38,301 nt of DNA from Megasphaera massiliensis (GTDB lineage Bacteria; Bacillota; Negativicutes; Veillonellales; Megasphaeraceae). The notes under the pieces were generated by a model. That model saw only the letters and a list, made by a program, of their open reading frames with translations. It made no database searches and was not told the DNA's origin. Each line of letters opens with the position of its first letter. Positions within the stretch are counted from its first letter, which is position 1. Below, piece after piece: positions 6,192 to 24,674 of the stretch. The translations under genes and the position numbers were made by a program. Where the stretch lies: the NCBI RefSeq assembly GCF_000455225.1, contig NZ_HF954537.1, positions 1,231,629 through 1,269,929 on the forward strand. Direction: 5' to 3'.

Positions 6192-7475
6192 TTATAGTAC
6201 GGGAAAGGTCGCTGCCGCATGGCCCATGACGGTAACGGTATAATCTTCAGGAAGGTTTTCCTGTGCTTTTGCCCAGGCCTCTTCCAAAGACGCCGCCGGG
6301 ATGAGACCGCTCTGACGAATGATATCAAAGTTTTCAGGCCGGGTTACGACATAGACAGCCTGCATGGAACGGAAAATACAGTGTGACTTGAAGGCTACAA
6401 AGGCCGGAATGGAAAAGTCGGCCCGCAGGTCCCGTTCAAAAGCCGTCATGTCGCTGCGGAAGAACCAGTCCGTAAAGACGGCCGGTTCTTTGATATCGGG
6501 GCAGTCGAGGGTGAGGATCATCGTGCCGCCGGGTTTCGTCGCAAAGACGGCATTCATAGGAGCCTTCATGCTCTGATAGAGGTTCATATCCTTAGGATAG
6601 CCGCCGGCCGAGGCCAAGGTGATATCTGCCCTTTCAGCAATAGGCACGCTGGCAAAGGAAAGAAGGTCATCACAGCCTTTCTTCCAGGCGGTATACCAGT
6701 GACCGCCGACGACTTCAGCCAGCTCCCCGTCTGCCGAAAAGACGGTATTGACCAGGAAGCAAGGATTCAGCAATGCCGCTGCCTGCTTCATATCGTCGTG
6801 AAGGGGGTTATCCTCTAAGAGGCTCGTTTCACAGCGTTCATTGCAGCCGCCGCCAAAATCTTCAGTCAGCGCCAAGGCATGGTTGCGCATAATCGTTTCA
6901 TAGCCGGCAATTCCCGGCAAGACAGCTTTACGGCCGCCGCCAAACCCGGCCATAGGATGGAAGGATACGGCACCGGTCACGATAACCTTATCGGCCCGAA
7001 CGGCTTCGGCATTAAGCCATACCTCATTGCCGTGCGTCGTCGTCCCGACTTTTAAGAGGTTTTCCTTATCGCGGCAGTCATGATTGATGATGGTAAGACG
7101 ACGTACCATTTCTTTGCCGCAGACCAACTCGTCTTCTTCCGGCGTATGAGCCCGGTGAGTCCCTTGGGCCGTAACGACCTTGATCTGCTCATCAGGAATA
7201 CCGGCCAGATTCAATTCATTTACAATGACCGGCAGCATCTGTGCCGTATGGACGGGGCGGGTAATGTCGCTGACGATGATGGCTACGGTGTCCCCGGGTG
7301 CTACGACGTCAGCCAAGGGAAGGCTGTCAATGGGTTGGCGCAGGGCCTTTCGGACAGCGGCGGCCTCATCGGAGACGGCTTTTACATGATTCCCATGTAA
7401 ATCATATAATATGTGTGTTTCATCAAGGGAAATCTGCTGTTCCCCTTTCCCAAAAGGAAGTGAATAGGTTTTCAT
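6192..7475 (-). CDS. larA: Nickel-dependent lactate racemase LarA
   Basis: LarA interconverts D- and L-lactate with a covalently bound nickel-pincer nucleotide. The 427 residues keep every residue known in the Lactiplantibacillus plantarum enzyme. D70 and R73 lie in SDITRP, H107 in GTHR, H173 in SFHPMAGFGGGRK, and K183, the cofactor attachment lysine, in the same motif. H199, the nickel ligand, is in MRNHAL, with Q301 and K304 in YQSMKA. The early numbering is shifted by only one. The LarB, LarC and LarE cofactor genes are not in the window. The start follows GAAGGAT, which overlaps the end of the preceding 53-codon gene. A FadR-type regulator is two genes upstream and a lactate-type flavoprotein is downstream. 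LarA paralogues acting on other 2-hydroxyacids exist, so the substrate is likely but not certain. Confidence 0.92.
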   Translation of the reverse strand: MKTYSLPFGKGEQQISLDETHILYDLHGNHVKAVSDEAAAVRKALRQPIDSLPLADVVAPGDTVAIIVSDITRPVHTAQMLPVIVNELNLAGIPDEQIKVVTAQGTHRAHTPEEDELVCGKEMVRRLTIINHDCRDKENLLKVGTTTHGNEVWLNAEAVRADKVIVTGAVSFHPMAGFGGGRKAVLPGIAGYETIMRNHALALTEDFGGGCNERCETSLLEDNPLHDDMKQAAALLNPCFLVNTVFSADGELAEVVGGHWYTAWKKGCDDLLSFASVPIAERADITLASAGGYPKDMNLYQSMKAPMNAVFATKPGGTMILTLDCPDIKEPAVFTDWFFRSDMTAFERDLRADFSIPAFVAFKSHCIFRSMQAVYVVTRPENFDIIRQSGLIPAASLEEAWAKAQENLPEDYTVTVMGHAAATFPVL

Positions 7476-7490
7476 AAAAATATCCTTCTA

Positions 7491-7652
7491 TTAAAATAGA
7501 TTCCAATGTCCCATATACAAGGCGACAAGGGAGCGAATGAATAAACAGACAAACAAAATATAGGTCAAAACATAGAGAAAGTTTTCAAAGTCTTCCATGT
7601 GCTCAGAACGTTCATGAATTTCGTGAAAATGGTCGAGTAAAAAATGTCCCAT
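7491..7652 (-). CDS. Small His-rich single-span membrane peptide between gntR and larA
   Basis: This is a 53-residue open frame with no family I recognise. The N-terminal half is polar and histidine-rich, with DHFHEIHERSEHMED (His at 3, 8, 10, 13 and 18) forming HxH and HxxH spacings. A hydrophobic segment follows (about residues 25-46, FLYVLTYILFVCLFI onward), then a short tail containing one more His. The ATG at 7652 has AGGAAGGG eight bases upstream, overlapping the gntR stop. Its stop is 15 bases before larA, so it is translated in the same tight leftward operon. What is seen is the frame, the ribosome site and the composition. A role with nickel or membrane placement of LarA is inference. 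It could also be a translational-coupling leader for larA. Confidence 0.65.
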   Translation of the reverse strand: MGHFLLDHFHEIHERSEHMEDFENFLYVLTYILFVCLFIRSLVALYMGHWNLF

Positions 7653-7667
7653 TTGAAAGTCCCTTCC

Positions 7668-8405
7668 TTATCCGTCTTGATGAGGGAATAATTCATGGAC
7701 GCGTCGAGCCGATTCTTCATCTTGGCGAATCCCTTTCAGCAGGGTGCGTTCTGAATTTTCCATATGTTTTTTAGCCACTTTTCGCGCCATGGCGCTATTA
7801 TGATCGGCAATATTTTCTACCATCTGCCGATGTTCCTCCCAGGTCGCCGCCAGACGGCCGGGATAGTGCATGGAAATAGAGCGAAAGCGAAGCATCTGTT
7901 CGCGTAAATTGTTCAAGATATCAACTAAACGCTGATTGCGGCTGGCGTGGTACAAAACGTCGTGGAAGCGAATGTCAGCATCGACGATCTTATCAAACTG
8001 GTCATTATCAATATATTCATTGATTTCGACGAGGATCCGTTCCAAATATTCTAATTCATCCGGCGTAATTCGCTCGGCAGCAAGGCCGGCTGCCAGTTCT
8101 TCCAAGGCGCTTCGGATTTCGAAAACCTGCGCGATATCCTTTAAAGAAATATCGGCTACATAGGTTCCGCGCCGCGGCACCATGACGACGAAGCCTTCAA
8201 GTTCCAATTTTCGGATAGCCTCGCGAATCGGCGTCCGGCTGACGCCCAATTCCTCAGCCAGTTGAATTTCCATCAGCCGCTCACCGGGCTTCAATACGCC
8301 ATCTTTAATGGCCTGACGCAAGGCCTCGCTGACGACTTCCCGCAGCGGTCGGTAAGCATCTAATTTTATCGGTTCTAAGGCATGCCTTTTCGTTTGCTTT
8401 TGCAT
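7668..8405 (-). CDS. GntR-family regulator, FadR/FCD subfamily
   Basis: This is a 245-residue transcription factor. The N-terminal winged helix contains ELGVSRTPIREAIRKLELEG (about residues 53-72). A helical FCD ligand-binding domain follows from about residue 85, with FEIRSALEELAAGLAAERI, the metal-binding pattern DADIRFHDVLYHASRN, and late histidines. FCD regulators typically bind carboxylic acids such as lactate or gluconate. It begins three bases after ispE and is followed directly by the small peptide gene and larA, so control of the lactate genes is likely. An ispE-gntR pairing is, from general knowledge, common in Negativicutes, so its target could also lie elsewhere. Confidence 0.88.
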   Translation of the reverse strand: MQKQTKRHALEPIKLDAYRPLREVVSEALRQAIKDGVLKPGERLMEIQLAEELGVSRTPIREAIRKLELEGFVVMVPRRGTYVADISLKDIAQVFEIRSALEELAAGLAAERITPDELEYLERILVEINEYIDNDQFDKIVDADIRFHDVLYHASRNQRLVDILNNLREQMLRFRSISMHYPGRLAATWEEHRQMVENIADHNSAMARKVAKKHMENSERTLLKGIRQDEESARRVHELFPHQDG

Positions 8406-8408
8406 CGA

Positions 8409-9275
8409 TCAGTATTCACCATCCTCTCGTTTCACTATGGTAGTCATATAGGTATCAACATCAGTCCATGTCATCACCTGACGTCGTACGTCCTCTTCCC
8501 GCAGTGGCGGAACCAAAGCAAAGACCGTAGGACCACTGCCGGCCATGAGCGGCTGCAGTCCCAGAGAAGCAAGGCGTTCCCGGCACCGGATCACTTGAGG
8601 CACGTCGGGCATCACCAGTTCCTCAAAGGTATTTCCCATGGCGGTCGTCACAGATTCGAACTGCCCTTGACGGATAGCTGCTTCGACGGCGTCGACATCG
8701 ATGGTGCCGGTCTTTTTTTTGCCGTCAAAGAGGGCATAGGCTCGTTTCGTCTGTACCGCAACGCGTGGGTGAAGCACGACGACAGGCCAGGACGGCAGTG
8801 ACGGAAGCCTTCGAAGCTGCTCGCCAATCCCGGTCCCGCGCATGGTCCCGCCGCAGATGCAAAAAGGCACATCGGCGCCGAGTTTAGCACCGATACGGCA
8901 TAGTTCCGGCTGCGATAAAGAGAGCTCCCACAACCGATTCAGCCCGCGCAAAACAGCGGCACAGTCCGTACTGCCTCCGGCAAGGCCGGCGGCAATGGGA
9001 ATCCTTTTTTCAATATGGATAGCCACGCCATGATTGTCCTTTTTATATGGACAGAGCGCCTTCCATGCCCGGTAGGCCAAATTCGTTTCATCGCAAGGCA
9101 GTGACTCGACGGAACAGGTTAACTGAAATTCCCCCACTTCCCTTAGCGTTACCGTATCACAGAGACCGATGGATTGAAAGATCGTATCGATATTGTGATA
9201 ACCATCCTCTCGAGCGCCTGTAATCGCCAACGCTAAGTTAATTTTTCCATATCCGGTTTCTACTATTTCAGTCAT
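8409..9275 (-). CDS. ispE: 4-(cytidine 5'-diphospho)-2-C-methyl-D-erythritol kinase
   Basis: IspE phosphorylates CDP-methylerythritol in the MEP pathway of isoprenoid precursor synthesis. The 288-residue GHMP kinase starts with YGKINLALAITGAREDGYH, which holds the substrate-binding KINL and DGYH elements. It carries the ATP loop PIAAGLAGGSTDCAAVLRGLN near residue 93 and the C-terminal glycine motif LMAGSGPTVFAL. It is the first gene of the leftward run ispE-gntR-peptide-larA. The pairing of a housekeeping kinase with lactate genes is probably positional rather than functional. Confidence 0.96.
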   Translation of the reverse strand: MTEIVETGYGKINLALAITGAREDGYHNIDTIFQSIGLCDTVTLREVGEFQLTCSVESLPCDETNLAYRAWKALCPYKKDNHGVAIHIEKRIPIAAGLAGGSTDCAAVLRGLNRLWELSLSQPELCRIGAKLGADVPFCICGGTMRGTGIGEQLRRLPSLPSWPVVVLHPRVAVQTKRAYALFDGKKKTGTIDVDAVEAAIRQGQFESVTTAMGNTFEELVMPDVPQVIRCRERLASLGLQPLMAGSGPTVFALVPPLREEDVRRQVMTWTDVDTYMTTIVKREDGEY

Positions 9276-10513: not shown

Positions 10514-11310
10514 TTTCTATGCAGCAGAATGACGAAAACAGTATGCTGCCGGTCTGCAGCACCAGCCAAGGTTTCCTTTCTGCTTCGTTCATTATAGCAT
10601 TTGATAGAAGACCGAAAAGCTTTTTCATGATGCTTATGCTGTTGTAAAAATCAAAAACGGATCAAGGTAAAGCTTTTTCGTGACTATGCGTCCTTTTCAG
10701 TGCTGACTTACAATCATTTCTACGTCAGAATTGTATTTCCGACTCCTATGATTAAGGTTGCGACGTGAAGTCCCACCTTCATACTCGTAGTTTTATGAAT
10801 GAGTTTAATTATTTCAAGCCAGCATCTTTTGAAGAGCGATTGAAACTCTTCGGTGTTGCTTCTGCCTCTAAACGCAATCGTCTCAATCAAAAAAACAAAC
10901 AAGTCCTAGCCTTAGACGATTATTTTCTTTTTCCAATTGGTTCAGATACTCTTGTTGTTCATTTTTCGTTTTCTTACTCTGGATGGTTTAGCCATTGGAG
11001 GATTTCCACCTTTTCCCGGAAAATGAAATCTCTATACCAACAGACCGATAGCAGCTGACAGAGCACGCAAGAACGGATAGCACTTTCATACGTAAGTCAA
11101 AAGTGAGATTCTCATAGCGGGTATCTGTGCTTAAGTATAATTTTACCGCATGACGTTAAAACTTAAAAGTGTGCTTTGCAAAAAACGCCTCCTGAATCTA
11201 GATTTTCAAGTTCCCCGCAAGGGCTCCGTTCAGTTCCGCTCCGGATATCCTCCGAATTGAGCACCTTAAGACAAGAAGAACCTTTTCTAATATATTCGGA
11301 ACAAAATGAA
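10514..11310. other. About 0.8 kb without a convincing gene; possible decayed element
   Basis: The stretch is AT-richer than its neighbours. The only open frames are short (97 codons at 10765-11058 rightward, 60 codons leftward over the same area), lack good ribosome sites and have no family resemblance I can name. One leftward frame, broken by stops, reads QEYLNQLEKENNRLRLG near 10890-10950. This coiled-coil-like stretch resembles those in IS3-type OrfA proteins. That would fit a decayed insertion sequence, but no terminal inverted repeats or target duplication were found. Confidence 0.35.
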
Positions 11311-11341
11311 GAGAACCGCTTCTGTAACAGGAGCGGTTCTC
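11311..11341 (-). terminator. Terminator of the polyol PTS operon
   Basis: A perfect 10-base stem (11311-11320 with 11332-11341) surrounds an 11-base loop, 30 bases after the stop of the last leftward gene. The T tract is weak on both sides, so strength is uncertain. Confidence 0.65.
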
Positions 11342-11371
11342 TTTCCGTTATACCTCAGTTATGATTGAGTA

Positions 11372-12694
11372 TTAGAGGAGTTTATAGCCATTGTTATACA
11401 TCTGGTCTTGGAGTTTACGCGTCTTATACAACTGCGTCGTCGTATCCAATTCAACCATATCCAGTGTCAAGAGCTGACCTTTTTTAGCATCCTTCTTCAT
11501 TCTCGTATTTTTGTTGATCAAACCGTATACGACATAGCCTTTAGCATAGCAATCTTCTGCCGTTGTAATGGAGCCGTATGTAGTATAACCGCCGATACCG
11601 TCAATGGTCTGACCGGCTTTCAAATCTGTCTTAGCTACGGTAATGACTTCACTGACCGGCCCGTCAAGCGGTACAATTGTCGGTTCATGGTCAAGAATAG
11701 CTTTAGCAACCGTCAACGGAGTTTCAAGATTGCAGAGATGGTACGGACGGTACAGCGTCCACAACGGGCCAGGACCCATGCTGTGATACTGCATCTGATA
11801 AGCAATTTCTTCATTCGGAGTCGAAACGGTAACAAAGACGCCCGGTGCAATGCCATTTACATATTCTACGACACCGTGTTTATTAAGAATACCACCGTCT
11901 TGTTTCAATTTGAAAATCTGATTCAACTCAGCGCAGCGATCTTTGGGAGAAGCTTCCGGACCATGACCACCAACTACATCAGGAATCAATCCGGTAGCAT
12001 TCGACATAGCCGTCATTTCAACCATTGTCTTTGTGCCGTCTTTAAAGGAGCAAAGCATGCGCGGGCTCATCTTACGTCTCGTAGCTTCTTCTAAGACAGT
12101 ATCAGGATTGCAATCATAATCGAGTTTATTATTTTTACCCTTGCCCATAACTTCTACGGTCATTCCCATAGCCCGTGCAAAGGAATACAATTCCATGACG
12201 GCACCCGGTTCGTCACCGGCAGACCCGGTATAGATGACACCATTCTGGTCGCCCAGTTTTTTCAGATAGGAGCCGATAACAACATCGGTTTCAACGTCCA
12301 TCATGACGACGTGTTTATGGTTGTTCATGGCATCAACGGCAATTTTTACACCGACTTCAGGAACACCCGTAACATCAATCGCGCAGTCAACTAAATTAGC
12401 CCGAGCAATGATGTCCGAGTTATCGGTAGCAACAAATTTGCCCATTTCCATGTACTTATTGGCTTCTTCTAACGTATGCGCTACAGCAATATCTTCATCT
12501 TTAATTCCTGCATAGTGGAAAGCATTGATTACATTTTCAAATTTAATATCGGAAACGATGGCCGGCATCATCCCTTTCATAAGAGCCATCTGCGTAACCA
12601 TGCCACGTCCCATCTGACCGGCGCCAACAATACCGGCACGAATAAGCTTACCTTCTTCTTCCAGTTTTTCTAACTTCTTGTCCATGTTTAACAT
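11372..12694 (-). CDS. COG4091/DRL-like NAD(P)-dependent oxidoreductase with SAF domain
   Basis: The protein has 440 residues. An N-terminal Rossmann domain begins at AGIVGAGQMGRGM (about residues 20-32). A homoserine-dehydrogenase-like catalytic middle contains YTGSAGDEPGAVMEL and GPGPLWTLYRPYHL. A C-terminal SAF-type domain starts near VITVAKTDLKAGQTID. This is the COG4091 family, often labelled 'homoserine dehydrogenase-like'. It includes the Brucella DXR-like enzyme DRL, which makes 2-C-methylerythritol 4-phosphate from deoxyxylulose 5-phosphate. It is the last gene of the PTS operon, where a polyol-phosphate dehydrogenase would be expected, so it probably acts on the phosphorylated PTS product. 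The exact reaction is unknown. A conventional homoserine dehydrogenase is unlikely from the context. Confidence 0.85.
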   Translation of the reverse strand: MLNMDKKLEKLEEEGKLIRAGIVGAGQMGRGMVTQMALMKGMMPAIVSDIKFENVINAFHYAGIKDEDIAVAHTLEEANKYMEMGKFVATDNSDIIARANLVDCAIDVTGVPEVGVKIAVDAMNNHKHVVMMDVETDVVIGSYLKKLGDQNGVIYTGSAGDEPGAVMELYSFARAMGMTVEVMGKGKNNKLDYDCNPDTVLEEATRRKMSPRMLCSFKDGTKTMVEMTAMSNATGLIPDVVGGHGPEASPKDRCAELNQIFKLKQDGGILNKHGVVEYVNGIAPGVFVTVSTPNEEIAYQMQYHSMGPGPLWTLYRPYHLCNLETPLTVAKAILDHEPTIVPLDGPVSEVITVAKTDLKAGQTIDGIGGYTTYGSITTAEDCYAKGYVVYGLINKNTRMKKDAKKGQLLTLDMVELDTTTQLYKTRKLQDQMYNNGYKLL

Positions 12695-12750
12695 ATGAAT
12701 TAGCCTCCTTAAAATTGGATCTTATATATTTAGTGAAATGTAACTACTAC

Positions 12751-13122
12751 CTAATGAATTTCAATGGTTGTACCGACTTTTATATCAGCTGCAAGCAGTG
12801 CTTCATCTCCTTCCACCATAATGCAGCCCGGTCGTTCAGGTTCATTTCCACCTTTGAAAACAATCGTGCAATGCCCCAACGTACGAAGTGTCTCTTTGGC
12901 TTCCTCCCCGACAGCCGTAATGGTAAAGATTTTATCGCCAATGATAAGCGTGTCATCCGGAGCCGGCACCTGCGTCAGATTCCCGACTGTATGAAGTATC
13001 GAAATATCAGCCAGCTCTTCTGGAGCATTTTCATTAAAGAGAATGATGAAGTTTAAATCCGGTTCCTGCAAAAACTGAAGCGCTTCATCTCCCCAGCCCG
13101 TTACACTGCAGTGAAATTTCAT
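12751..13122 (-). CDS. srlB: PTS glucitol/sorbitol-family IIA component
   Basis: This soluble 123-residue protein of the glucitol IIA family receives phosphate from HPr and passes it to IIB. It contains NAPEELADISILHTVG, whose His is the likely phospho-acceptor, and GDKIFTITAVGEEAKETLRTLGH, typical of SrlB. The start is placed at 13122, nine bases after AAGGAG; an in-frame ATG six bases upstream is too close to the ribosome site. It follows srlE with a gap of about 23 bases, and the DRL-like oxidoreductase comes next. Confidence 0.92.
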   Translation of the reverse strand: MKFHCSVTGWGDEALQFLQEPDLNFIILFNENAPEELADISILHTVGNLTQVPAPDDTLIIGDKIFTITAVGEEAKETLRTLGHCTIVFKGGNEPERPGCIMVEGDEALLAADIKVGTTIEIH

Positions 13123-13145
13123 AGACATTATCTCCTTCTATAAAT

Positions 13146-14129
13146 TTATGAATACATGCCAATACTAGCAACATAAGCAATAACAACAGCAATGGGGCCC
13201 GTCAAAACGCGAGAATACAATACAGCCGGCACACCTAATTCAATCGTTTCCGGTTCAGCTTCTCCCAAACTTAGGCCAACCGGGACGAAGTCACAACCGG
13301 CCTGTGCATCGATAGCGAAAAGTGCAGGCAGGGCATACTGCGGAGGGATATTCCCCAAACCGATCTGAGCACCGAGTAACGTTCCGACAACCTGCGCAAT
13401 AACGGCACCGGGGCCAAGGACCGGAGAAATAAACGGCATGGCACAAATGAAGGAAATGATCAACATCCCCGGAAGCGTACTTGCAACAGGCGAGATGACG
13501 TTTGCAATGACATCGCCGATACCGGACGCCTGAATAATCCCCAAAATCATACTTACGAAAGCCATAAACGGCAGGATGCTCTTCAAGGTGACATCGATGG
13601 TTTCACGGCCGGCAGCATAAAACTTGCTGATGATACTGCCTATGCCAATGCCAATCCGAGTAAAGATATTTTTCTTGGCTTCCGGAGCCTTTTCCTGTGC
13701 GGGAGCAGCCTTCACTTCCGGTACCGGTGCTGCCGGCGTTTCCACCTTCGCAGCTTCCGCTTCATCAATATAAGCAAAGCACGATTCATCGACAGCCGAT
13801 ACATAGATATCTTCCGTAATATACTTGGCTAAGGGCCCTGTCTTACCGACAGGCATTACATTCAATGTATTGATTCGTTTTTTCGGATAGACCCCGCAGC
13901 GAGCCGTACCGCCGCAGTCAACAACAACCGCTAAGATTTCATTATCCGGCACCCCGTTCGTAAATCCATCGATAACGTCACAACCGGTCATCGTCGCCAG
14001 CGACGTCGCTACCGGGTGAATGCCACCGCCTGTAATACTGACAATTTTATGTCTTTCGTCACTCGGGACCAACGTCAGAGGGCCGCCCCAACCTCCTTTA
14101 CCAGCTACAATCTTTACCGCTTTATACAT
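13146..14129 (-). CDS. srlE: PTS glucitol/sorbitol-family IIBC component
   Basis: The protein has 327 residues. An N-terminal IIB domain carries [17 protein letters not shown], whose cysteine is the expected phosphorylation site. A linker rich in Ala, Pro and Glu (about residues 130-155) leads to a hydrophobic IIC half with several membrane segments and the family run [20 protein letters not shown]. It forms the permease with SrlA and phosphorylates the polyol during entry. Its ATG lies three bases after the srlA stop, with GGAGGTG overlapping the end of srlA. Confidence 0.94.
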
Positions 14130-14132
14130 AAC

Positions 14133-14684
14133 TTATTCACCTCCGACAGCTTTTTTCTTCTGCTGACTATTGTACATATAGCTGTAAATCCGTTCGGTAA
14201 TGACCCCGCGAATAAAAATGACGACAATACCGACTAAAAAGTAACGAACCGCTAAATCCCCCAACGACAGTCCCTGCTGCGTTAATCCGGCTGCAATCCC
14301 CATGTAGACGAACAATTCTGCGGGATTTGCATGCGGGAATAGGCCGGTTACCGGATGTATAAAGCTTACAGTTGTATCATAGAAAGCCGGTTTATATTTT
14401 TCTTTTACAAACCGTCCCAACGTATAGCACATCGGATTTCCCAAAAATACAACCGCTAAAATCGGCAAAATCGTGTATCGAGTAATCATATATTTCGTCG
14501 ATTTTTCGGCTAGCCGATTGACTTTGTCTTCCCCGATCAACTTAATCAAAGAGTTGAATGCTGTCATCATAACGATAACCAGCGGGATGATCCCTGCAAC
14601 CCATCCGGCAAAAATTGTCGCACCGGATTTAAATAATTCAATAAACGCATTTGCAAACCAAGCAATTGATTCCATAAAAGCCAC
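14133..14684 (-). CDS. srlA: PTS glucitol/sorbitol-family IIC component
   Basis: This is a 183-residue membrane protein of the EIIC-GUT family. It shows four or more hydrophobic segments and the characteristic stretch FVKEKYKPAFYDTTVSFIHP, followed by TGLFPHANPAELFVYMGIAAG. It forms the transport channel with SrlE. The family normally takes linear polyols such as glucitol, and related systems take other polyols, so the substrate cannot be fixed from sequence. AGGTGG precedes the ATG at 14684, and the gene sits 55 bases after gutM. Confidence 0.93.
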   Translation of the reverse strand: MAFMESIAWFANAFIELFKSGATIFAGWVAGIIPLVIVMMTAFNSLIKLIGEDKVNRLAEKSTKYMITRYTILPILAVVFLGNPMCYTLGRFVKEKYKPAFYDTTVSFIHPVTGLFPHANPAELFVYMGIAAGLTQQGLSLGDLAVRYFLVGIVVIFIRGVITERIYSYMYNSQQKKKAVGGE

Positions 14685-14739
14685 CTTTCTTTCTCAAAAT
14701 ACTATCCGTTCAGTTAATCTTTCCGAATCCCAGCGGCAA

Positions 14740-15138
14740 TCACACCTCCTGGCAGCCGGGCAATCCCAATCGCTCTTCTAAAACATCAAGAGCTTGTATA
14801 TACCCTTTATAGAGATTTTGTTTGCGCTTCGATAAGTTCATGTACTCTTGCTTCAATTGAGAGATATGTTTTCCAACAATCCCTTTTTCTTTTTTGAAAT
14901 GACTGAAGATGGTCATCCCCTTCATGATTTCCGAATCGATAATCATGCCTTCGTTATCACAGGCTATGATGATGACATAACCGGGACCTAACTTTCCTCG
15001 TCGTCCTCCGATTCCGACATTGCCTTGTCGGTGCAGACGCCGTATCGCCTTATGATAAGCTCGAACTTGTAACCTCATACCGATGAGCTGCATTAAGACC
15101 AGTAGGAAAAAAATTCCAAAGATCGTATAGATGTCCAT
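14740..15138 (-). CDS. gutM: GutM-family glucitol operon activator-like protein
   Basis: This is a 132-residue protein with an N-terminal hydrophobic segment (about residues 3-20) and the GutM core GNVGIGGRRGKLGPGYVIII, followed by KGMTIFSHFK. GutM helps activation of the glucitol operon in Escherichia coli by a poorly understood route. Here it is the first gene of the leftward operon gutM-srlA-srlE-srlB-oxidoreductase. An AGGAGG lies six bases before the ATG. The membrane segment suggests it may sense transport rather than bind DNA directly; that is inference. Confidence 0.85.
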   Translation of the reverse strand: MDIYTIFGIFFLLVLMQLIGMRLQVRAYHKAIRRLHRQGNVGIGGRRGKLGPGYVIIIACDNEGMIIDSEIMKGMTIFSHFKKEKGIVGKHISQLKQEYMNLSKRKQNLYKGYIQALDVLEERLGLPGCQEV

Positions 15139-15194
15139 TATTGCCTCCTTTACATAGGATCTTTCGTTTGATTAATTATCATCTCGTTAATGAT

Positions 15195-15223
15195 AATATA
15201 TCATTTATTTTTAATTTTTACAA
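15195..15223 (-). promoter_or_regulatory. Promoter of the gutM-srlAEB operon
   Basis: Read leftward, TTGTAA (15218-15223) and TATATT (15195-15200) are 17 bases apart, about 55 bases before gutM. The large inverted repeat at 15236-15284 lies directly upstream of the -35, an activator position. Confidence 0.65.
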
Positions 15224-15235
15224 TATCTTTGAATA

Positions 15236-15284
15236 GAACATATGTAAAAATGTAAACAATGGAGGATTATTTTTACATATGTTC
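15236..15284. promoter_or_regulatory. Perfect 16-bp inverted repeat, probable SorC-type operator
   Basis: The left arm GAACATATGTAAAAAT (15236-15251) is repeated inverted without mismatch at 15269-15284 after a 17-base spacer. Each arm contains the palindrome ACATATGT, and the two copies are 33 bases apart, about three helical turns. It lies between the convergent end of the sorC gene and the gutM promoter. A tetrameric SorC/DeoR-type regulator bound at both arms is the simplest reading. Confidence 0.7.
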
Positions 15285-15308
15285 AGATCAGGAAATATTA
15301 AAATAAAA

Positions 15309-15360
15309 AGCCAGGGTATCACTTGTCAGAAAAATTCATCCTTCAAGTCATATCCTGGCT
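15309..15360 (-). terminator. Terminator of the SorC-family gene
   Basis: Positions 15309-15325 pair with 15344-15360 with two mismatches, and the leftward side continues as TTTTTATTTTAAT. It follows the sorC stop by about 12 bases. Confidence 0.75.
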
Positions 15361-15371
15361 TCCTTATTATT

Positions 15372-16343
15372 TTATTCACTGATTTCCAACAATCGTTGAG
15401 CGCAATCAATATCCGTAATCAAGACGTTGATGTATTTTCCCCGAATAGCTCCGAGAACAGCCGCAGCCTTTTGCGGCCCGCTGGCAACCCCTACGCGATA
15501 CGGCACTTCGTTCAGCTCCTCGATCGATATACCTGAAACGCGGCTGTTAAATTCGTCAAAGGGCTCCATATTTCCATTGATATCAAAAAACCGGAGGGCA
15601 ATGTCTCCGACTGCACCATTTTCGGTAAAAGTCTGGAGAATCCTTTTATCGACATATCCGGTTCTTAAAATAGTCGAATTCTGCGTATTGGGAATGCCGA
15701 TGCCCATAATGACCAAATTCAGTTTCTTATATAGCTGAGTCACGTGACGAATGGTCTGTTCCTGCAAAAAGCCTTGAAGAACTTCTTTCTGTGAAAATAC
15801 AGCCGGTGAAAAAAACTGTATGCATTTCCCTCCAAAGAGTGATGCAAAGCGTTGTGTCAAATAATTAGAATGTATTTCTAAGAGGCTGTCGCCGATGCCG
15901 CCTAAAATGGGAATAAAGGTACAGGGGATTTTTTCACTGATAAAGTAGTCCGTCCGCACGATGTTCTGAATGGCAAACCCCATAGAGACCCCGACATAAT
16001 CTCCCTCATGCAAAACACGTTCCATATAGTGGAGCGTCCCTCGCCCCAACTCAGAATTAATCGGTTTACTTCCCCCGACCAGCGGACTCGACGGCACAAT
16101 GTTAACTTCTTGCAGCTGAAACCGCTCTTCTATATCTCGTTCCAGTTTTCCATACATGACGTTCTCCGGATTCTTCAGCTCGATTTGCACGATCCCCAAT
16201 TCTTTGCCGCGATTGAGCATCCGAGAAACAGTAGGTCTGGAAATGCCTAACTGATTGCAAATCTGCTGTTGACTCTTATTGTCCTGATAGTATAAGTAAC
16301 AACATTTGTAAATGAGCCGTACGTCATCAATTAGTTTTTTCAT
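15372..16343 (-). CDS. SorC-family sugar-phosphate-responsive transcriptional regulator
   Basis: This is a 323-residue regulator. The N-terminal helix-turn-helix spans about residues 18-45 (QQQICNQLGISRPTVSRMLN). It is followed by the SorC effector domain related to sugar-phosphate isomerases, with DYVGVSMGFAIQNIV, VIMGIGIP and the C-terminal YRVGVASGPQKAAAVLGAIRG. Members bind a phosphorylated sugar made by the pathway they control. The start at 16343 is chosen because the helix-turn-helix begins soon after; its ribosome site (AAAGGAT) is only fair. An upstream in-frame start would add 15 residues. It is transcribed toward the gutM operon, whose upstream repeat is its likely target. Confidence 0.9.
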   Translation of the reverse strand: MKKLIDDVRLIYKCCYLYYQDNKSQQQICNQLGISRPTVSRMLNRGKELGIVQIELKNPENVMYGKLERDIEERFQLQEVNIVPSSPLVGGSKPINSELGRGTLHYMERVLHEGDYVGVSMGFAIQNIVRTDYFISEKIPCTFIPILGGIGDSLLEIHSNYLTQRFASLFGGKCIQFFSPAVFSQKEVLQGFLQEQTIRHVTQLYKKLNLVIMGIGIPNTQNSTILRTGYVDKRILQTFTENGAVGDIALRFFDINGNMEPFDEFNSRVSGISIEELNEVPYRVGVASGPQKAAAVLGAIRGKYINVLITDIDCAQRLLEISE

Positions 16344-16440
16344 ACGCACCAAAATCCTTTGCAAGTGATTCACACACCTAAAAATCATAACCCATATATA
16401 TTTTTATTATATACGAAATCCTCTAAAAAATGGATAAAAA

Positions 16441-16492
16441 AAACATCTCATTAATTTTGCCGACAAATTGCCAGCAAAATAACGAGATGTTT
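16441..16492 (-). terminator. Terminator of the yjbQ unit
   Basis: Positions 16441-16460 pair with 16474-16492 nearly perfectly, and the leftward side continues in a T run. The hairpin separates the isomerase-yjbQ unit from sorC, so these are different transcripts. Confidence 0.9.
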
Positions 16493-16508
16493 CTAACCAA
16501 ACGTATGC

Positions 16509-17030
16509 TTACTCTCCCATGACGACAATGTGGCACTTTCTCGTCCGACTCCGTGTGCGGTCAAAATCGACGAAGTAGACATATCCCGTCGTGCCGACGC
16601 CCAGTTTCCCCTGGTCAACTAAAAAGGTTTCACTCGAGCCGATCAAAGTCGCTTTCAAATGAGCATCCCCATTCAGCAGCGCCGTCCGATCGCCGTTCGG
16701 CAAGTAGGCCTCCGCATCCGGCCAGGATGCAACAGCCTGATAGTGCTTTTCTCCTGGATAGCGATATTGACCTTCCTTCAATTCGTCAGGAATCAGTTTT
16801 TTCAAAACATCATTCAAATCAAGCTGCAAAAATTCAGTGCCCTTTTCATCCGTATCATGGACATATTCTTCAAAAAACACTGCACACGTCGTATGGGGTG
16901 AAATAATCGTGCAAATTCCGTCTTGAACACCGCTGTCTGCAATAGCAGCCTTTACTTCATCCGTAATATTAATAAAAGTCGGTTCGCCGCCATTAGATTG
17001 AAGCTTAATCGTCGTCTTGTATACACTCAT
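16509..17030 (-). CDS. YjbQ/UPF0047-family protein
   Basis: This is a 173-residue member of the UPF0047 family. The conserved segments are GICTIISPHTTCAVFFEE, YPNGDR-like YLPNGDRTALLNGDAH, and QGKLGVGTTGYVYFVDFD near the end. The histidines line the putative active site in known structures. Escherichia coli YjbQ has weak thiamine phosphate synthase activity, but family members occur in sugar operons and the true role is unclear. The start at 17030 is directly after the upstream isomerase gene and has AAGGGGG nine bases ahead. It is co-transcribed with that isomerase gene, which suggests a task in sugar-phosphate metabolism. Confidence 0.87.
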   Translation of the reverse strand: MSVYKTTIKLQSNGGEPTFINITDEVKAAIADSGVQDGICTIISPHTTCAVFFEEYVHDTDEKGTEFLQLDLNDVLKKLIPDELKEGQYRYPGEKHYQAVASWPDAEAYLPNGDRTALLNGDAHLKATLIGSSETFLVDQGKLGVGTTGYVYFVDFDRTRSRTRKCHIVVMGE

Positions 17031-17031
17031 T

Positions 17032-17736
17032 TTATACAGCCCCCTTTTCCTTTTTATCACGATTGGCTTGTACAATAGCCTTTGTCATTTCTTCTACACG
17101 TACAGCCGGATCCGGCGCATTCAAAATACCACTGGTCGCACCGGTGCCCTCAGCCCCTAAGAAAATGACGCGATAACAATCTTCTGCCGTCGTAATACCG
17201 GAAGCAATCATGACAGCAATATCCGGATTTACGGCCTTGATTTTACTGCAAGAATCAAAAATGTAGTTGTCCCCGGCTGTTTCTCCCGTTCCAATCAAAT
17301 CGGTCGGTTCACACAGCAGTATATCAGGATTGAATCGTGCGAGGGCTTCACCTTCCGTAACGGAATCAGCACAGACAATCGTCAATAAGCCTAATTCCTT
17401 CGCCCGCTGAACAGCCGCATACAGTTCATGAACGATCAACGGATTTTCTGCATGGTTCAAAACAACAGCACCTGCACCGGCAGCTTTCAGTGATTCGGGG
17501 AGTACATGCCCCATACCTCGTCCCGGTTTTAAGGATTCCATATGCTGAGCTGTAACAATAATGTGTTTCGTATGCTCCTTAATATAACGGATATCCGAAA
17601 AAGGGCAGGAAAAGAACATCGTTAAGCCGTACTTTTCAGCAATCACATCAGTCGCCTTGGCCAGTGCTAAAGATTCATCGCCATATAAATAAGATTTAGG
17701 GTTCACTAACAGAAAGGGATATAAACTTTTTTCCAT
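17032..17736 (-). CDS. Archaeal-type triosephosphate isomerase family protein
   Basis: This is a 234-residue TIM barrel, shorter than usual bacterial TpiA (about 250). It keeps the catalytic set: K14 in VNPKSY, H95 in LNHAEN and E143 in CEPTDLIGTG. It also has the phosphate-binding tail MIASGITTAEDCYRVIFLGA. The segments TAQHMESLK and HVLPESLKAAGAGAVVLNHAE resemble archaeal TIMs more than bacterial ones. The substrate may be a triose phosphate or, as for the TIM-like EryH of erythritol degradation, a tetrulose phosphate. AGGAGG eight bases upstream fixes the start at 17736. The promoter is overlapped by operator copies that match sites at the neighbouring gntR-aldolase unit. Confidence 0.85.
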   Translation of the reverse strand: MEKSLYPFLLVNPKSYLYGDESLALAKATDVIAEKYGLTMFFSCPFSDIRYIKEHTKHIIVTAQHMESLKPGRGMGHVLPESLKAAGAGAVVLNHAENPLIVHELYAAVQRAKELGLLTIVCADSVTEGEALARFNPDILLCEPTDLIGTGETAGDNYIFDSCSKIKAVNPDIAVMIASGITTAEDCYRVIFLGAEGTGATSGILNAPDPAVRVEEMTKAIVQANRDKKEKGAV

Positions 17737-17754
17737 GAAGAGCACCTCCTATTT

Positions 17755-17800
17755 TTACCTTTGGTAATTTAAATATACCAAAGGATAAAAAATAAATCAA
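17755..17800 (-). promoter_or_regulatory. Promoter of the TIM-yjbQ unit with overlapping operator copies
   Basis: Read leftward, TTGATT (17795-17800) and TATATT (17772-17777) are separated by 17 bases. Two operator-like 13-mers flank the -10: TTACCTTTGGTAA (17755-17767) and a weaker ATACCAAAGGATA (17775-17787). Together they create the inverted repeat CCTTTGGTA, 9 bases, TACCAAAGG (17758-17784). The placement implies repression. Confidence 0.7.
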
Positions 17801-17824: not shown

Positions 17825-17837
17825 TCACCAGTGGCTA
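17825..17837. promoter_or_regulatory. Operator copy upstream of the GntR/UTRA regulator gene
   Basis: TCACCAGTGGCTA shares the ACCA-N-TGG core with the sites at 17755 and 18674. It is placed between the divergent TIM and gntR genes and may serve autoregulation. Confidence 0.5.
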
Positions 17838-17920
17838 TCTATTTTCCCTACATCCATGGTAAAATAAATGTAATACGTAGTATCAGACTATATTCATCAT
17901 TCGATAATAGAGGAAAATCC

Positions 17921-18643
17921 ATGAAAAAAGAATTACTTCACACGCAAATACAGAAAAGATTAAAGGAAAAATTCGATGAACTCCCGTATATGTCCCCATT
18001 GACTAGTGAAAGAGAGCTTTGTCAAGAATATCAAGTAAGCCGACCAACAATTCGAAAAGCCTTAGCTGCCATGGAAGAAAATGGCCAAATTATCCGTATT
18101 CCGGGAAAAGGCTCCTTTTACATCGGCAATAAAATCCCTATAGACTATTCTAATGAAAAAAGACACGGCTTCGGATTGTCTCAAACCCTGATGTCCGTTG
18201 GTAAAGTCACGCACAGCCGTGTTTTGCAGCAAGTTATCGAAATTGCCGATGAAGATATTGCCGGCCATCTTCATATAGAACCGGGCGATCTCGTCTTTCA
18301 CCTACAGCGTCTTCGGTATGTAAATAACGAATTATACTCCTTATCTAATGACTACCTTCCACTGGCATTGTGCCCATCATTAATGGAAATCGACTTTTCT
18401 AAAAATTCACTGATGCAGACCCTTCAGAAGAATCAAATTCATCCGAGGCGAACAGACAACATTATCGAATTCTCCAAAGCGGATTCTCAAACGGCCGCTT
18501 ATTTACGCTTAAAGAAAGGAGCCCCTGTTTCAGTAACACGCATCACCATTTATGATGATAAAAATAAAATCATACAATATGCCATTTCACGATCGGATGC
18601 CTATAAAAGCCGCTTCCACGTCATATCTACACTGACAGACTGA
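17921..18643 (+). CDS. GntR-family regulator, HutC/UTRA subfamily
   Basis: This is a 240-residue regulator. The winged helix contains LTSERELCQEYQVSRPTIRK (about residues 25-44), and the wing IRIPGKGSFYIG follows. A UTRA effector domain then runs to the end (about residues 85-240), with SNDYLPLALCPSL and the common C-terminal pattern ending in YAISRSDAYKSRFHV. UTRA domains bind sugar phosphates and similar small molecules. The start at 17921 has AGAGGA upstream. It lies between the TIM-yjbQ unit and the aldolase gene, and 13-bp palindromes occur in all three control regions, so it is the probable local repressor. Confidence 0.9.
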   Translation: MKKELLHTQIQKRLKEKFDELPYMSPLTSERELCQEYQVSRPTIRKALAAMEENGQIIRIPGKGSFYIGNKIPIDYSNEKRHGFGLSQTLMSVGKVTHSRVLQQVIEIADEDIAGHLHIEPGDLVFHLQRLRYVNNELYSLSNDYLPLALCPSLMEIDFSKNSLMQTLQKNQIHPRRTDNIIEFSKADSQTAAYLRLKKGAPVSVTRITIYDDKNKIIQYAISRSDAYKSRFHVISTLTD

Positions 18644-18694: not shown

Positions 18695-18737
18695 ATAGAC
18701 AAATGGTTATATATTGTTCAATAGTGAGGTGGCTTAT

Positions 18738-19592
18738 ATGTTAACAAGTGCTAAAGAAATACTTACCCACGCTAAGGAAAAAAAATATGGCGTCGTTGCT
18801 CCTGATTTATGGGATTTAAATACAGGACGTGACTATGTGCAAGTCGCAGCAGAGTTAAACGCTCCTCTTATCTTGTCTTTTGCCGAAGCGCATCAACACT
18901 TAATCTCCTTGGAAGAAGCTGCTGCCATTGGCAACTATCTAGTATCTTCCGTCAAGATTCCCATAGCGCTTCACCTAGATCATGGTACTGACTTTGAATA
19001 TATCAAAAAAGCCATCAGTCTGGGATTTAATTCAGTTATGATTGACGCTTCCATGTACAGCTTTGAAGAAAATGTGCGCCGTACAAAAGAAGTCGTCGAT
19101 TATGCGCACGCACACAACGTATCCGTTGAAGCAGAAATCGGCCATGTCGGCGGAACAACCGAAACCTTGGTAGAACAAGCATCAGGAGAATCAGTCTACA
19201 CCACCGTCGAAGAAGCTGCCGCTTTCATTGAACAAACCCATGCCGATTCCTTGGCCGTGTCCATAGGAACTTCCCATGGCGTATATAAAAATCAAAAAAA
19301 TCCAACGTTAAACTTTGAACGGCTTCATGAATTAGCCACAGCCGTTCCGGTACCCCTAGTCCTTCATGGCGGATCCGGAACCGGTGATGATAACCTAAAA
19401 AAATGCGTCGCCGGAGGCATCACTAAAGTAAACGTTTTTACCGAATTCACCACAGCCGCCTTAGCAGGAGCGCAAAAAGCCATAGCAGAAGGCAATCTGA
19501 AGAGTTTCATGCGCGTACAGGAACTGGCTGATACGGAAGTAAAAAAAGTACTCCGCCACTATATTAAATTATTGACGTTGAAAGAAATCTAG
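18738..19592 (+). CDS. Class II (zinc) ketose-bisphosphate aldolase
   Basis: This is a 284-residue aldolase of the FbaA/GatY/KbaY family, which cleaves a ketose (bis)phosphate reversibly to DHAP and an aldehyde. It shows the catalytic Asp and zinc His in LHLDHGTDF (D81, H82), EAEIGHVGG (E131, E133), the zinc His in SIGTSHGVYK (H180) and LVLHGGSGTG (H210). The phosphate-binding segment reads KVNVFTEFT where fructose-bisphosphate aldolases usually have KINIATD, so the substrate may differ. The start at 18738 follows GAGGTGG. It is co-transcribed with the GmhA-like isomerase gene 17 bases downstream and is controlled by the operator in its promoter. Confidence 0.9.
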   Translation: MLTSAKEILTHAKEKKYGVVAPDLWDLNTGRDYVQVAAELNAPLILSFAEAHQHLISLEEAAAIGNYLVSSVKIPIALHLDHGTDFEYIKKAISLGFNSVMIDASMYSFEENVRRTKEVVDYAHAHNVSVEAEIGHVGGTTETLVEQASGESVYTTVEEAAAFIEQTHADSLAVSIGTSHGVYKNQKNPTLNFERLHELATAVPVPLVLHGGSGTGDDNLKKCVAGGITKVNVFTEFTTAALAGAQKAIAEGNLKSFMRVQELADTEVKKVLRHYIKLLTLKEI

Positions 19593-19609: not shown

Positions 19610-20167
19610 GTGGACTTAATCAAAGAACGGATATGTGAACATGCAGCAATATTAAATCAGGTTCATAACTTAATCCCGCAAATAGAAGCAGCAGGAAACA
19701 TCATCACAAAAGCCATTCAACAAGGCAACAAAATCATCTTTTGCGGTAACGGAGGCAGTGCTGCTGATGCCCAACATTTAGCGGCCGAAATCGTAGGACG
19801 CTTTCAGAAAGAACGCCAGGCATTACCGGCACTCGCATTGACAGTCGATACCTCAGCACTGACAGCAATTTCTAATGATTACGGCTTTGAAAATGTTTTT
19901 AAAAGACAGCTGGAAGGCCTTGGAAGAAAGAACGATGTCCTTATCGGCATCTCTACCTCGGGCAATAGCATAGACGTAATTCGAGCTGTAGAATACGCCA
20001 ACCAACATGAAATCGTCACAATTGGTTTCACCGGAAATGGCGGAGGCGCATTAAAAGACATGTGTGATATTTCGATTGACATTCCCAGCAAAAAAACTAC
20101 GCACACTCAAGAAATGCATATTATGATTGGTCATATTTTATGTGAAATAGCCGAACTCGCCTATTGA
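19610..20167 (+). CDS. GmhA-type phosphoheptose isomerase (SIS domain)
   Basis: This 185-residue SIS protein closely follows GmhA, which converts sedoheptulose 7-phosphate to D-glycero-D-manno-heptose 7-phosphate. It contains FCGNGGSAADAQHLAAEIVG (catalytic Glu near 60), DTSALTAISNDYGFENVFKR, GISTSGNS, and the C-terminal IGHILCEIAE with the catalytic His at 175. The start is GTG at 19610 after GAGGT. Its position in a regulated sugar operon, away from heptose-nucleotide genes such as hldE or gmhB, suggests a catabolic or alternative role rather than LPS heptose synthesis. LPS synthesis remains possible in a diderm organism. Confidence 0.88.
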   Translation: MDLIKERICEHAAILNQVHNLIPQIEAAGNIITKAIQQGNKIIFCGNGGSAADAQHLAAEIVGRFQKERQALPALALTVDTSALTAISNDYGFENVFKRQLEGLGRKNDVLIGISTSGNSIDVIRAVEYANQHEIVTIGFTGNGGGALKDMCDISIDIPSKKTTHTQEMHIMIGHILCEIAELAY

Positions 20168-20276: not shown

Positions 20277-20927
20277 TTAGATTCGAATTTCGTTGGTATC
20301 GCGATAGATGAGCCATTCAGCAATGTTGTTTGCATGGTCAGCCATTCGTTCGATGTACTTAATAACCAAGACTAAGTCGATGTAATCTTTGGAATTTTCC
20401 GGATGCTTAGTCATTTCGGCCGACAGGTCGAGCATCAGGTTGTTGAAAGCCTGGTCGACGATATCGTCTTTATCCCGCATGAATTCTGCCTGGGACGACG
20501 TGCCGCGTTCTTTGTAGAAGTCGATGACGTCACTGACCATAGAGGACATGACACCGTACATTTCCTTTACGCCTGCCGGCAAGGGTACGTCATGGTTAGT
20601 CTGTTTCAAGTGGATGACGTAGTGGCTGATATCAGCGCAATGATCGGCAATGCGTTCTAAGTCGGAGAGGATTTTCAGCGTCGCCATCAAGCTCCGATAA
20701 TCAGCCGCCACGGGACCTTGCATCAAACTAATCGTCAAGTCTTTTTTCATGCACGATTTGACCAGTTCATCGATGGCATCGTCGCCATCGAAGATACGCT
20801 GAGCCAATTCGACATCTTTGCGTTCCAAGGCCTTCCACGTGCTTTCTACGGCCTGTTCTACTTTCATGCCCAAGCCGATCATATCCTGCTTCAGCTCGGC
20901 CAATTCTTTTTCATAAATTTCCAGCAT
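20277..20927 (-). CDS. phoU: Phosphate transport regulator PhoU
   Basis: This is a 216-residue all-helical protein made of two PhoU repeats. The metal-binding motifs appear as LSDLERIADHCADI in the first half and VIKYIERMADHANNIAEW in the second. PhoU links the Pst transporter to the PhoR kinase and represses the response when phosphate is ample. It is the last gene of pstSCAB-phoU, 17 bases after pstB, and is followed by a strong terminator. Confidence 0.96.
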   Translation of the reverse strand: MLEIYEKELAELKQDMIGLGMKVEQAVESTWKALERKDVELAQRIFDGDDAIDELVKSCMKKDLTISLMQGPVAADYRSLMATLKILSDLERIADHCADISHYVIHLKQTNHDVPLPAGVKEMYGVMSSMVSDVIDFYKERGTSSQAEFMRDKDDIVDQAFNNLMLDLSAEMTKHPENSKDYIDLVLVIKYIERMADHANNIAEWLIYRDTNEIRI

Positions 20928-20944
20928 AAGTCCCTTTCCTCCTC

Positions 20945-21801
<857 letters not shown>

Positions 21802-21802
<1 letters not shown>

Positions 21803-22680: not shown

Positions 22681-22681
22681 A

Positions 22682-23605: not shown

Positions 23606-23623
23606 ACCCGTTCCTCCAATAAA

Positions 23624-24505: not shown

Positions 24506-24583
24506 AACGAAATCCTCTCCTTTAAATAAAAGAATCTGAAAGATGTTCCTGATTCTGAATACAGTCTTATCCTATCAACAGGA

Positions 24584-24621
24584 TGTAAGGTTTGGATGTA
24601 TGTATTGTAAAATATTGTAAA
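24584..24621 (-). promoter_or_regulatory. Pho-box-like direct repeats upstream of pstS
   Basis: Read leftward, TTTACA elements occur at about 24616-24621 and 24606-24611, followed by a degenerate copy and then CTTACA at 24584-24589. The last three lie on an 11-base period. The spacing and sequence fit PhoP/PhoB boxes of the TTnACA type. The site lies about 80 bases before pstS. Confidence 0.55.
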
Positions 24622-24622
24622 A

Positions 24623-24674
24623 AAATCACCACTCCCCGCCAGGCCTGATCAGGCCTGGAAGGTAATGGTGATTT
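24623..24674 (-). terminator. Terminator overlapping the phoR stop codon
   Basis: A nested hairpin pairs outer arms 24623-24631 and 24666-24674. Inside it is a perfect 20-base palindrome (24639-24658) that contains the phoR stop. T residues follow leftward. It separates phoPR from the pst operon. Confidence 0.75.

Follow-up and report, generated by a model that had tools for sequence, protein, structure and literature searches.

Among the closest described relatives of the system analysed here is DRL of Brucella, the DXR-II type of 1-deoxy-D-xylulose 5-phosphate (DXP) reductoisomerase (DXR), which is known as a biosynthetic synthase of 2-C-methyl-D-erythritol 4-phosphate (MEP) (3UPL/3UPY; PMC3847144). 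A protein of the same fold and length, with the same substrate and clade-diagnostic residues, is encoded in a 38,301-nucleotide stretch of Megasphaera massiliensis (contig NZ_HF954537.1; this whole stretch is hereafter the window, and its positions are used throughout). It differs from the known DXR-II in its setting, a phosphotransferase system (PTS) operon in a genome that also encodes the DXR-I type, and in the oxidative direction that we propose for it. The operon resembles Gut/Srl operons in having SrlA-SrlE-SrlB, in the usual order, together with GutM, but GutM comes first, the regulator is of the SorC type, DRL takes the place of SrlD, and the window or its relatives add either a triosephosphate isomerase (TIM)-like protein, a YjbQ-like protein and an aldolase (module A) or an acetoin-dehydrogenase-like E1/E2/E3 set (module B). 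By the E1-alpha tree, the nearest relative of module B is the acetoin dehydrogenase complex (AcoABCL, AcoX), from which it differs in forming a separate clade, in a basic residue in the His loop, in small polar residues in place of a Phe and an Ile, and in its linkage to DRL instead of to AcoR-like or AcoX-like genes. The Brucella ery pathway also pairs a regulator of the SorC type with a TIM-type isomerase that acts on a sugar phosphate, whereas the window uses PTS uptake and DRL, and its operon genes, as far as scanned, include neither an EryA-type kinase nor an EryB-type dehydrogenase. The sorbitol PTS of Salmonella is said, as the title of a 2004 paper by Testa has it, to transport 2-C-methyl-D-erythritol (ME), and there it feeds isoprenoid mutants. 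The parts (DXR-II, Gut PTS, ME uptake) are known singly, and what appears new is the pathway that we propose for them within a PTS polyol operon: with moderate confidence, we suggest that these genes serve the catabolism of ME or of a branched tetritol very close to it.

A sequence-only reading of the window had placed gutM, srlA, srlE and srlB, followed by a 440-residue DRL protein and with no SrlD, at 11372-15138. The minus-strand gene order and Pfam matches agree with these five genes, and the operon genes scanned include no SrlD-type short-chain dehydrogenase, the search for one having been confined to these genes. The proposed end at 15138 did not hold, because SorC, YjbQ, TIM and aldolase genes recur with PTS and DRL in other genomes; the cluster extends past gutM to the SorC, YjbQ-like, TIM-like and divergent class II aldolase genes. 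Its genes are as follows.

11372-12694, minus strand: DRL, a DXR-II-like NAD(P)-dependent reductoisomerase of 440 residues, proposed to convert MEP to DXP (DRL_cat, PF21135, 213 bits against a cut-off of 27)
12751-13128, minus strand: srlB/gutA, PTS glucitol-type IIA (PF03829, 110 bits; below NCBIfam cut-offs)
13146-14129, minus strand: srlE, PTS glucitol-type IIB(C) (PF03612, N-terminal, 229 bits; PF07663, C-terminal, 158 bits; NF049924 above cut-off)
14133-14684, minus strand: srlA, PTS glucitol-type IIC (EII-GUT), GTG start (PF03608, 258 bits; NF049923 above cut-off)
14740-15138, minus strand: gutM (PF06923, 87 bits; below its NCBIfam cut-off)
15372-16388, minus strand: SorC/DeoR-type sugar-binding transcriptional regulator (PF04198, 206 bits)
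16509-17030, minus strand: YjbQ/UPF0047-like protein, proposed partner in the isomerase steps (PF01894, 96 bits)
17032-17745, minus strand: TIM-like isomerase of archaeal type (PF00121, 64 bits; NF003302, 177 bits; 1hg3, E 5e-43)
17831-18643, plus strand: divergent GntR/UTRA regulator (PF07702, 107 bits; PF00392, 38 bits)
18714-19592, plus strand: divergent class II aldolase (PF01116, 280 bits; nearest solved structure the YdjI aldolase 6ofu)
19610-20167, plus strand: SIS-domain (GmhA-like) isomerase after the aldolase, of uncertain membership (PF13580, 102 bits); it is not beside the aldolase in the loci L032 or L184

The identity of the DRL protein rests on several lines of evidence. Its only matches in the PDB are to Brucella DRL (3upl/3upy, E = 2e-100), with 174 of 405 aligned residues identical (43%), and an AlphaFold2 model (pLDDT 93.7, built with 27 sequences) superposes on 3UPY with a Z score of 54.6 and a root-mean-square deviation of 1.4 Å over 428 aligned residues; the next-best structural matches of the model are DXR-I proteins, at Z 18. 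K191, K193 and T229 (Brucella numbering), named as substrate and fosmidomycin residues of DXR-II (PMC3847144), correspond to K185, K187 and T223 in the window. The clade-identity and dimer-contact residues taken from the same source (G121, H250 and V351, and E174, F178, R320 and Y322, respectively) are identical in all seven cases. Across 76 rows labelled as PTS-linked DRL, every one conserves K185, K187, N188, T223 and R316 (one row so labelled, L052_PB_4035, is in fact the second DRL, 6 kb away, which makes the true count 75), and the diagnostic H and V vary across DRL relatives. By predicted fold and by residues, the window protein is DXR-II-like, in line with the COG4091 relationship to DRL that the sequence-only reading had seen.

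These features bear directly on whether this could be an ordinary sorbitol operon, in which DRL has turned into a sorbitol-6-phosphate dehydrogenase or is a bystander homoserine dehydrogenase. SrlA and SrlE do score above the NCBIfam sorbitol equivalog cut-offs, but SrlB and GutM score below them, DRL is too close to DXR-II in sequence, fold and residues, and the modules conserved around it are not needed for sorbitol; we regard this explanation as highly improbable. Homoserine dehydrogenase, one of the outcomes against which the earlier reading had set its proposal, was rejected: DRL_cat is the only Pfam domain found, no homoserine-dehydrogenase catalytic domain is present and no NCBIfam family matches at E 1e-3. 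A plain glucitol-6-phosphate dehydrogenase, the other such outcome, is disfavoured by conserved neighbours that sorbitol catabolism would not require.

In the pathway that we propose, the Gut PTS would import ME and phosphorylate it to MEP, DRL would oxidise MEP to DXP, and DXP would then be cleaved to a C2 unit plus a triose phosphate. The last step would fall, in many relatives, to module B (DXP + CoA + NAD+ giving acetyl-CoA + glyceraldehyde 3-phosphate), a complex proposed for it because DXP is an acyloin, like acetoin. In the window it would fall to module A, whose TIM-like and YjbQ-like proteins would shift the carbonyl from C2 to C4 in two isomerisations, after which the class II aldolase would cleave 5-deoxypentulose 1-phosphate to dihydroxyacetone phosphate and acetaldehyde; these details are the least certain part of the pathway and are offered tentatively. 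As proposed, the two modules turn one and the same C5 compound into a C2 unit plus a triose phosphate. In hosts without DXR-I, the same kind of enzyme appears to double as, or to have been recruited as, the biosynthetic MEP synthase.

The sequence-only reading had suggested a branched-polyol PTS with a rearranging oxidoreductase. The kind of protein, its place in the operon and a likely branched substrate all stand; we uphold the idea only in part because the enzyme activity and the substrate are inferred. Judged from the sequences, the most likely substrate of DRL is the phosphate of a branched polyol, which it would oxidise and rearrange, and the evidence favours ME over the apiitol, erythritol and threitol that had also been named. 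Another branched or short polyol (apiitol, hamamelitol, erythritol, threitol or a 1-deoxypentitol) whose phosphate DRL oxidises, and perhaps rearranges, would presumably also suit DXR-type chemistry. TIM-like isomerases are part of erythritol pathways, and module A is found with a Gat-type PTS and no DRL. Apiitol and hamamelitol, however, would lead to ordinary ketose phosphates, for which no complex that cleaves acyloins is needed, either module would make poor products from erythrulose phosphates, and the window DRL keeps the DXR-II residues for the DXP/MEP pair, so that we consider a substrate of this kind rather doubtful.

The association of PTS and DRL genes, which the earlier reading had suggested looking for, was confirmed across genomes. 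A scan of GTDB genomes, from which the best 80 of 243 named relatives were kept, gave, with the window, 81 loci that are not a random sample; 55 of these have two or more PTS subunits no further than 10 kb from DRL. In a phylum sample of 398 genomes, 38 of which bear DRL, PTS and DRL occur together in at least 23 of the 38 and 12 are without PTS (a count that leaves out G266, G080 and the short DRL contig of G362). The linkage is not due to chance. Module B (E1-alpha and E1-beta within 10 kb) accompanies 17 of the 55 PTS-DRL loci and module A (TIM, YjbQ and aldolase) 13, the window among them; neither occurs at any of the 26 DRL loci without PTS, one of which (L054, on a truncated contig) has a lone TIM-like gene. 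Module genes are thus present with PTS in 30 of 55 loci and without PTS in 0 of 26 (p 2.5e-7, kinship ignored).

PTS-DRL association is already seen in Listeria (L094) and many Firmicutes, and the cassette of PTS, DRL and E1 crosses phyla (a Rubrobacteraceae metagenome-assembled genome (MAG), L089; Xenophilus, L100; Lichenifustis, L111) and is carried on plasmids (Priestia, L142; Rhizobium, L146). On a Sinorhizobium plasmid (L144), SorC-DRL-E1a-E1b-E2-E3 faces genes for an ABC sugar transporter and a sugar kinase, which take the position expected for the PTS; the 17-kb stretch examined contains no PTS. An Aminobacter plasmid (L145) has DRL-E1a-E1b-E2 without SorC or PTS. Because these two keep DRL-E1-E2 without PTS, DRL-E1-E2 is the constant core and uptake is exchangeable. 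Six loci (L085, L086, L087, L092, L099 and L102) combine DRL with an FGGY kinase and a Zn-dehydrogenase, with no PTS within 10 kb, and represent a third uptake style. DRL was not found in two sampled genomes of the same genus as the window (G071 and G361), and its closest counterparts, 88-90% identical, come from genomes that share the window's class but are assigned to another family; for these reasons the cassette looks accessory and transferred within the class.

Where module B accompanies PTS and DRL in the phylum sample, the gene order is commonly SorC-GutM-SrlA-SrlE-SrlB-DRL-E1a-E1b-E2-E3, with a PtsI (named by eye from its N terminus) after E3 in L157 and L160. In that sample an E1 match lies within 20 kb of DRL in 19 of the 38 DRL genomes, and 26 of the 93 genomes with an E1-alpha match at E 1e-60 also have DRL (odds ratio 9.5, kinship again ignored). 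The presence of E1 was rejected as a DRL-specific marker, as 67 of 360 DRL-less genomes also match at this threshold; among 11 such genomes examined for context, 9 carry a gene that by eye is AcoX-like. No E1 match at E 1e-60 is present in the window's own genome. In a first E1-alpha tree, which omits duplicates of loci and ten weaker E1 matches that had no locus, all DRL-linked rows fall in one clade (21 of its 24 rows, support 99/91, with 3 others). A second tree, with 35 chosen DRL-linked rows (L070, L159, L161 and L165 left out), again places them in one clade, as 35 of 37 rows with 2 others (SH-aLRT 96), outside the acetoin-type clade; all 11 of L212-L222 are labelled AcoX in this tree, although two showed no such gene. 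The members not linked to DRL come from a Bacillus safensis/pumilus-type locus (L147, L223) and C. difficile loci (L143, L148), which have a Gat-type PTS where seen and whose species carry PTS-DRL elsewhere (L078, L186, L063). The nearest rows outside the clade are of acetoin-dehydrogenase type with an AcoR-like or AcoX-like neighbour (names given by eye), held together only at 80 and with L150-L152 falling outside; pyruvate dehydrogenase (PDH) is far.

The clade also differs in its active-site residues. Beside the catalytic-type His of E1-alpha, the residue is K in 34 and R in 2 of 36 clade members, versus E in 12, V in 1 and I in 1 of 14 acetoin-type sequences; the loop after this His reads S-K/R-S in 36 of 36, whereas it is mostly F-E-G in the acetoin type (F in 13, E in 12 and G in 14 of 14). 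Phe to Thr and Ile to Asn are further clade-specific changes. A basic residue and a roomier polar pocket would be fitting for a phosphorylated acyloin such as DXP, and it is plausible that module B is a new, DXP-cleaving enzyme activity. Module B also occurs with a Gat-type PTS (by eye) and no DRL nearby, in L143 and, with a Zn-dehydrogenase, in L223. Modules A and B with a Gat-type PTS and without DRL are expected if the DRL product is their common substrate and the Gat-type PTS brings in a compound that already has this ketose level or reaches it through a single ordinary dehydrogenase.

The components of module A recur together. A YjbQ-like gene is present in 14 of the 81 loci, 13 of which also have the TIM-like and aldolase genes, and a class II aldolase of the same subfamily is likewise present in 14, of which only L095 lacks TIM and YjbQ. 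The TIM-like protein resembles archaeal TIM, and its Lys, His and Glu of catalytic type are invariant in 24 of 24 rows compared. The window YjbQ-like protein is longer than solved YjbQ proteins; solved relatives match it in two pieces, with the middle unmatched. In L204-L207 a second, DRL-free catabolic cluster joins a Gat-type PTS to genes of the aldolase, TIM-like and YjbQ-like kinds, and three of these four loci have a LevR-like regulator of about 975 residues (LevR-like and Gat being names given by eye). The TIM-like and YjbQ proteins are general sugar-phosphate tools, because 8 of the 11 genomes with a TIM-like match in the phylum sample lack DRL and paired TIM and YjbQ genes are found in further sugar contexts as well (L208-L211).

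The isoprenoid genes of DRL hosts bear on whether PTS-linked DRL could serve biosynthesis. We scored 79 host genomes (the L082 host is not among them) for IspG and DXR-I. Among 53 PTS-linked hosts, 27 have both, 16 have IspG without DXR-I, 1 (Listeria farberi) has DXR-I without IspG and 9 have neither; the corresponding numbers for 26 non-PTS hosts are 3, 19, 0 and 4. IspG is thus not found in ten PTS-linked hosts, seven of them titled as isolates, and for this reason DRL cannot serve isoprenoids there; with caution, PTS-linked DRL in these IspG-less hosts is not for isoprenoids. Where IspG is present and DXR-I absent, DRL probably makes MEP: 12 of the 16 PTS-linked hosts of this kind carry a single DRL, and a PTS-linked DRL as the sole apparent MEP synthase of some genomes supports DXP/MEP chemistry. 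Six Selenomonadales loci have a DRL 76-87% identical to the window's; five (L032, L033, L034, L036 and L046) are in genomes with IspG and without DXR-I, and Pectinatus L035 has DXR-I. No PTS is near DRL in L036 and L046. In L046 (a Selenomonadaceae MAG, G454 contig C184), whose genome has IspG and no DXR-I match, ispG and DRL are about 7 kb apart (24606-25631 and 32096-32593).

Such hosts could suggest that the system only salvages ME for isoprenoids, with PTS-made MEP entering IspD, DRL as an auxiliary MEP synthase and no breakdown. ispD and ispF directly follow the PTS-DRL operon on the same strand in L183, a class-level relative (7222-8478, DRL from 8599), and within 10 kb of PTS-DRL lie ispD in L038 and ispDF in L057 and L066, the L057 ispD scoring below its NCBIfam cut-off. 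In the window, ispE (8409-9275) has the same orientation as DRL and begins some 2 kb past it, with an oppositely oriented YitT-family gene in between; this position may be a coincidence. The 16 hosts with IspG and without DXR-I would also suit salvage. Against it stand the ten hosts without IspG and the 27 that already have both DXR-I and IspG, and salvage would leave the E1/E2/E3 and TIM/YjbQ/aldolase modules without a role; we consider it unlikely. A further isp link, at L050, was rejected: the gene best matches ribitol-5-phosphate cytidylyltransferase (253 bits), and it also passes the ispD cut-off (191 against 181). On the Rhizobium rhododendri plasmid of L146, thiC-thiO-thiS and a thiazole synthase gene (13432-16963) lie about 2 kb behind DRL-E1-E2; DXP is a thiamin precursor, and E1 needs thiamin diphosphate.

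A tree of 120 DRLs contains members from C. difficile, Listeria, Bacillus pumilus, Ochrobactrum and Mesorhizobium, whose genera PMC3847144 lists as DXR-II, and no named DLO1 or DLO2 reference. A separate clade for PTS-linked DRL was rejected (23 label changes in the tree, at least 16 of them forced): PTS-linked and unlinked DRLs interleave, close pairs inside one genome included, which is expected if one chemistry runs in both directions. That many bacteria use ME as a carbon source (ME to MEP to DXP, then cleavage by either module), and that DXR-II was catabolic at its root and repeatedly recruited to replace DXR-I, is a broader idea to which we would give about even chances. By title and start of abstract, no ME catabolic pathway was found among the open-licence PMC papers searched, and none of those matching Listeria lmo0542-0546 is on DXR-II by title. 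The words sorbitol and PTS are absent from PMC3847144.

Several points weigh against ME catabolism. The DXR equilibrium favours MEP. The Ser-x-Ser motif after the E1 His is also known in PDH, which leaves only the Lys of this loop as distinctive. The DXR-II-diagnostic His (H244 in the window) is His in only 64 of the 76 PTS-labelled rows. Within 10 kb, 23 of the 55 PTS loci have neither module and 2 more have part of module A. This module is also found in the absence of DRL and may therefore act on something other than DXP, and no acetaldehyde-using enzyme was identified in it. Strict mutual exclusion of the modules was rejected: the 81-locus set has no overlap (chance 0.004, kinship ignored; the module A locus L042 has a stray 42-bit E1 match), but L172 of the phylum sample carries both. 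Single absences of DXR-I or IspG are weak because they rest on drafts and MAGs, and among the 12 single-DRL hosts with IspG and without DXR-I only L032, and perhaps L038, is not titled as a MAG. Other window-like hosts (L035, L037 and L058) have DXR-I. The window's genome has one DRL match and one DXR-I match; DRL as its sole MEP synthase was rejected, and because DXR-I is present the window DRL cannot be shown to be an MEP synthase by need. Finally, according to PMC3994034, Salmonella phosphorylates ME by an ATP-dependent kinase and not by the PTS.

Four predicted regulatory elements accompany the cluster.

15236-15284, unstranded: perfect 16-nt inverted repeat GAACATATGTAAAAAT with a 17-nt spacer, upstream of gutM and probably the operator of SorC
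15308-15361, unstranded: terminator-like hairpin between SorC and gutM (18-nt arms, 89% complementary)
11309-11343, unstranded: terminator-like hairpin after DRL (17-nt arms, 94% complementary)
17752-17790, unstranded: putative GntR operator, an inverted repeat between the TIM-like and GntR genes (15-nt arms, 87% complementary)

The operator half-site occurs twice in the window, both copies in the 15236-15284 repeat, against 0.14 expected, and 1 of 100 shuffles gave two copies. Among 15 loci compared, Pectinatus L035 and its duplicate L185 have a similar half-site pair at the same 39-nt offset, four others have a single copy and eight have none. With the repeat upstream of gutM and the terminator-like hairpins after SorC and after DRL, gutM-srlAEB-drl looks like one transcript, and SorC at its operator would sense a phosphate of the pathway. 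Elsewhere in the window are a protein resembling LarA, the nickel-dependent lactate racemase (6192-7475, by eye), and a phosphate-uptake set with PhoU, ABC transporter parts, a phosphate-type binding protein and a PhoR/PnpS-like histidine kinase (20277-26349).

If ME catabolism is confirmed, the scattered DXR-II family would gain a physiological context. Such catabolism would also explain active DXR-II in bacteria that have no isoprenoid use for it: PMC3847144 reports the Finegoldia magna enzyme as confirmed active in an organism with neither MEP nor mevalonate (MVA) enzymes (class E) and, in the sections consulted, leaves it without explanation. The pathway would predict a new enzyme, a DXP-cleaving acyloin dehydrogenase. 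ME is a plant and aerosol compound, and it would become a new carbon source for gut and soil bacteria. The finding would bear on fosmidomycin-type drugs as well, because exogenous ME taken up by the Gut PTS can feed the pathway past DXR.

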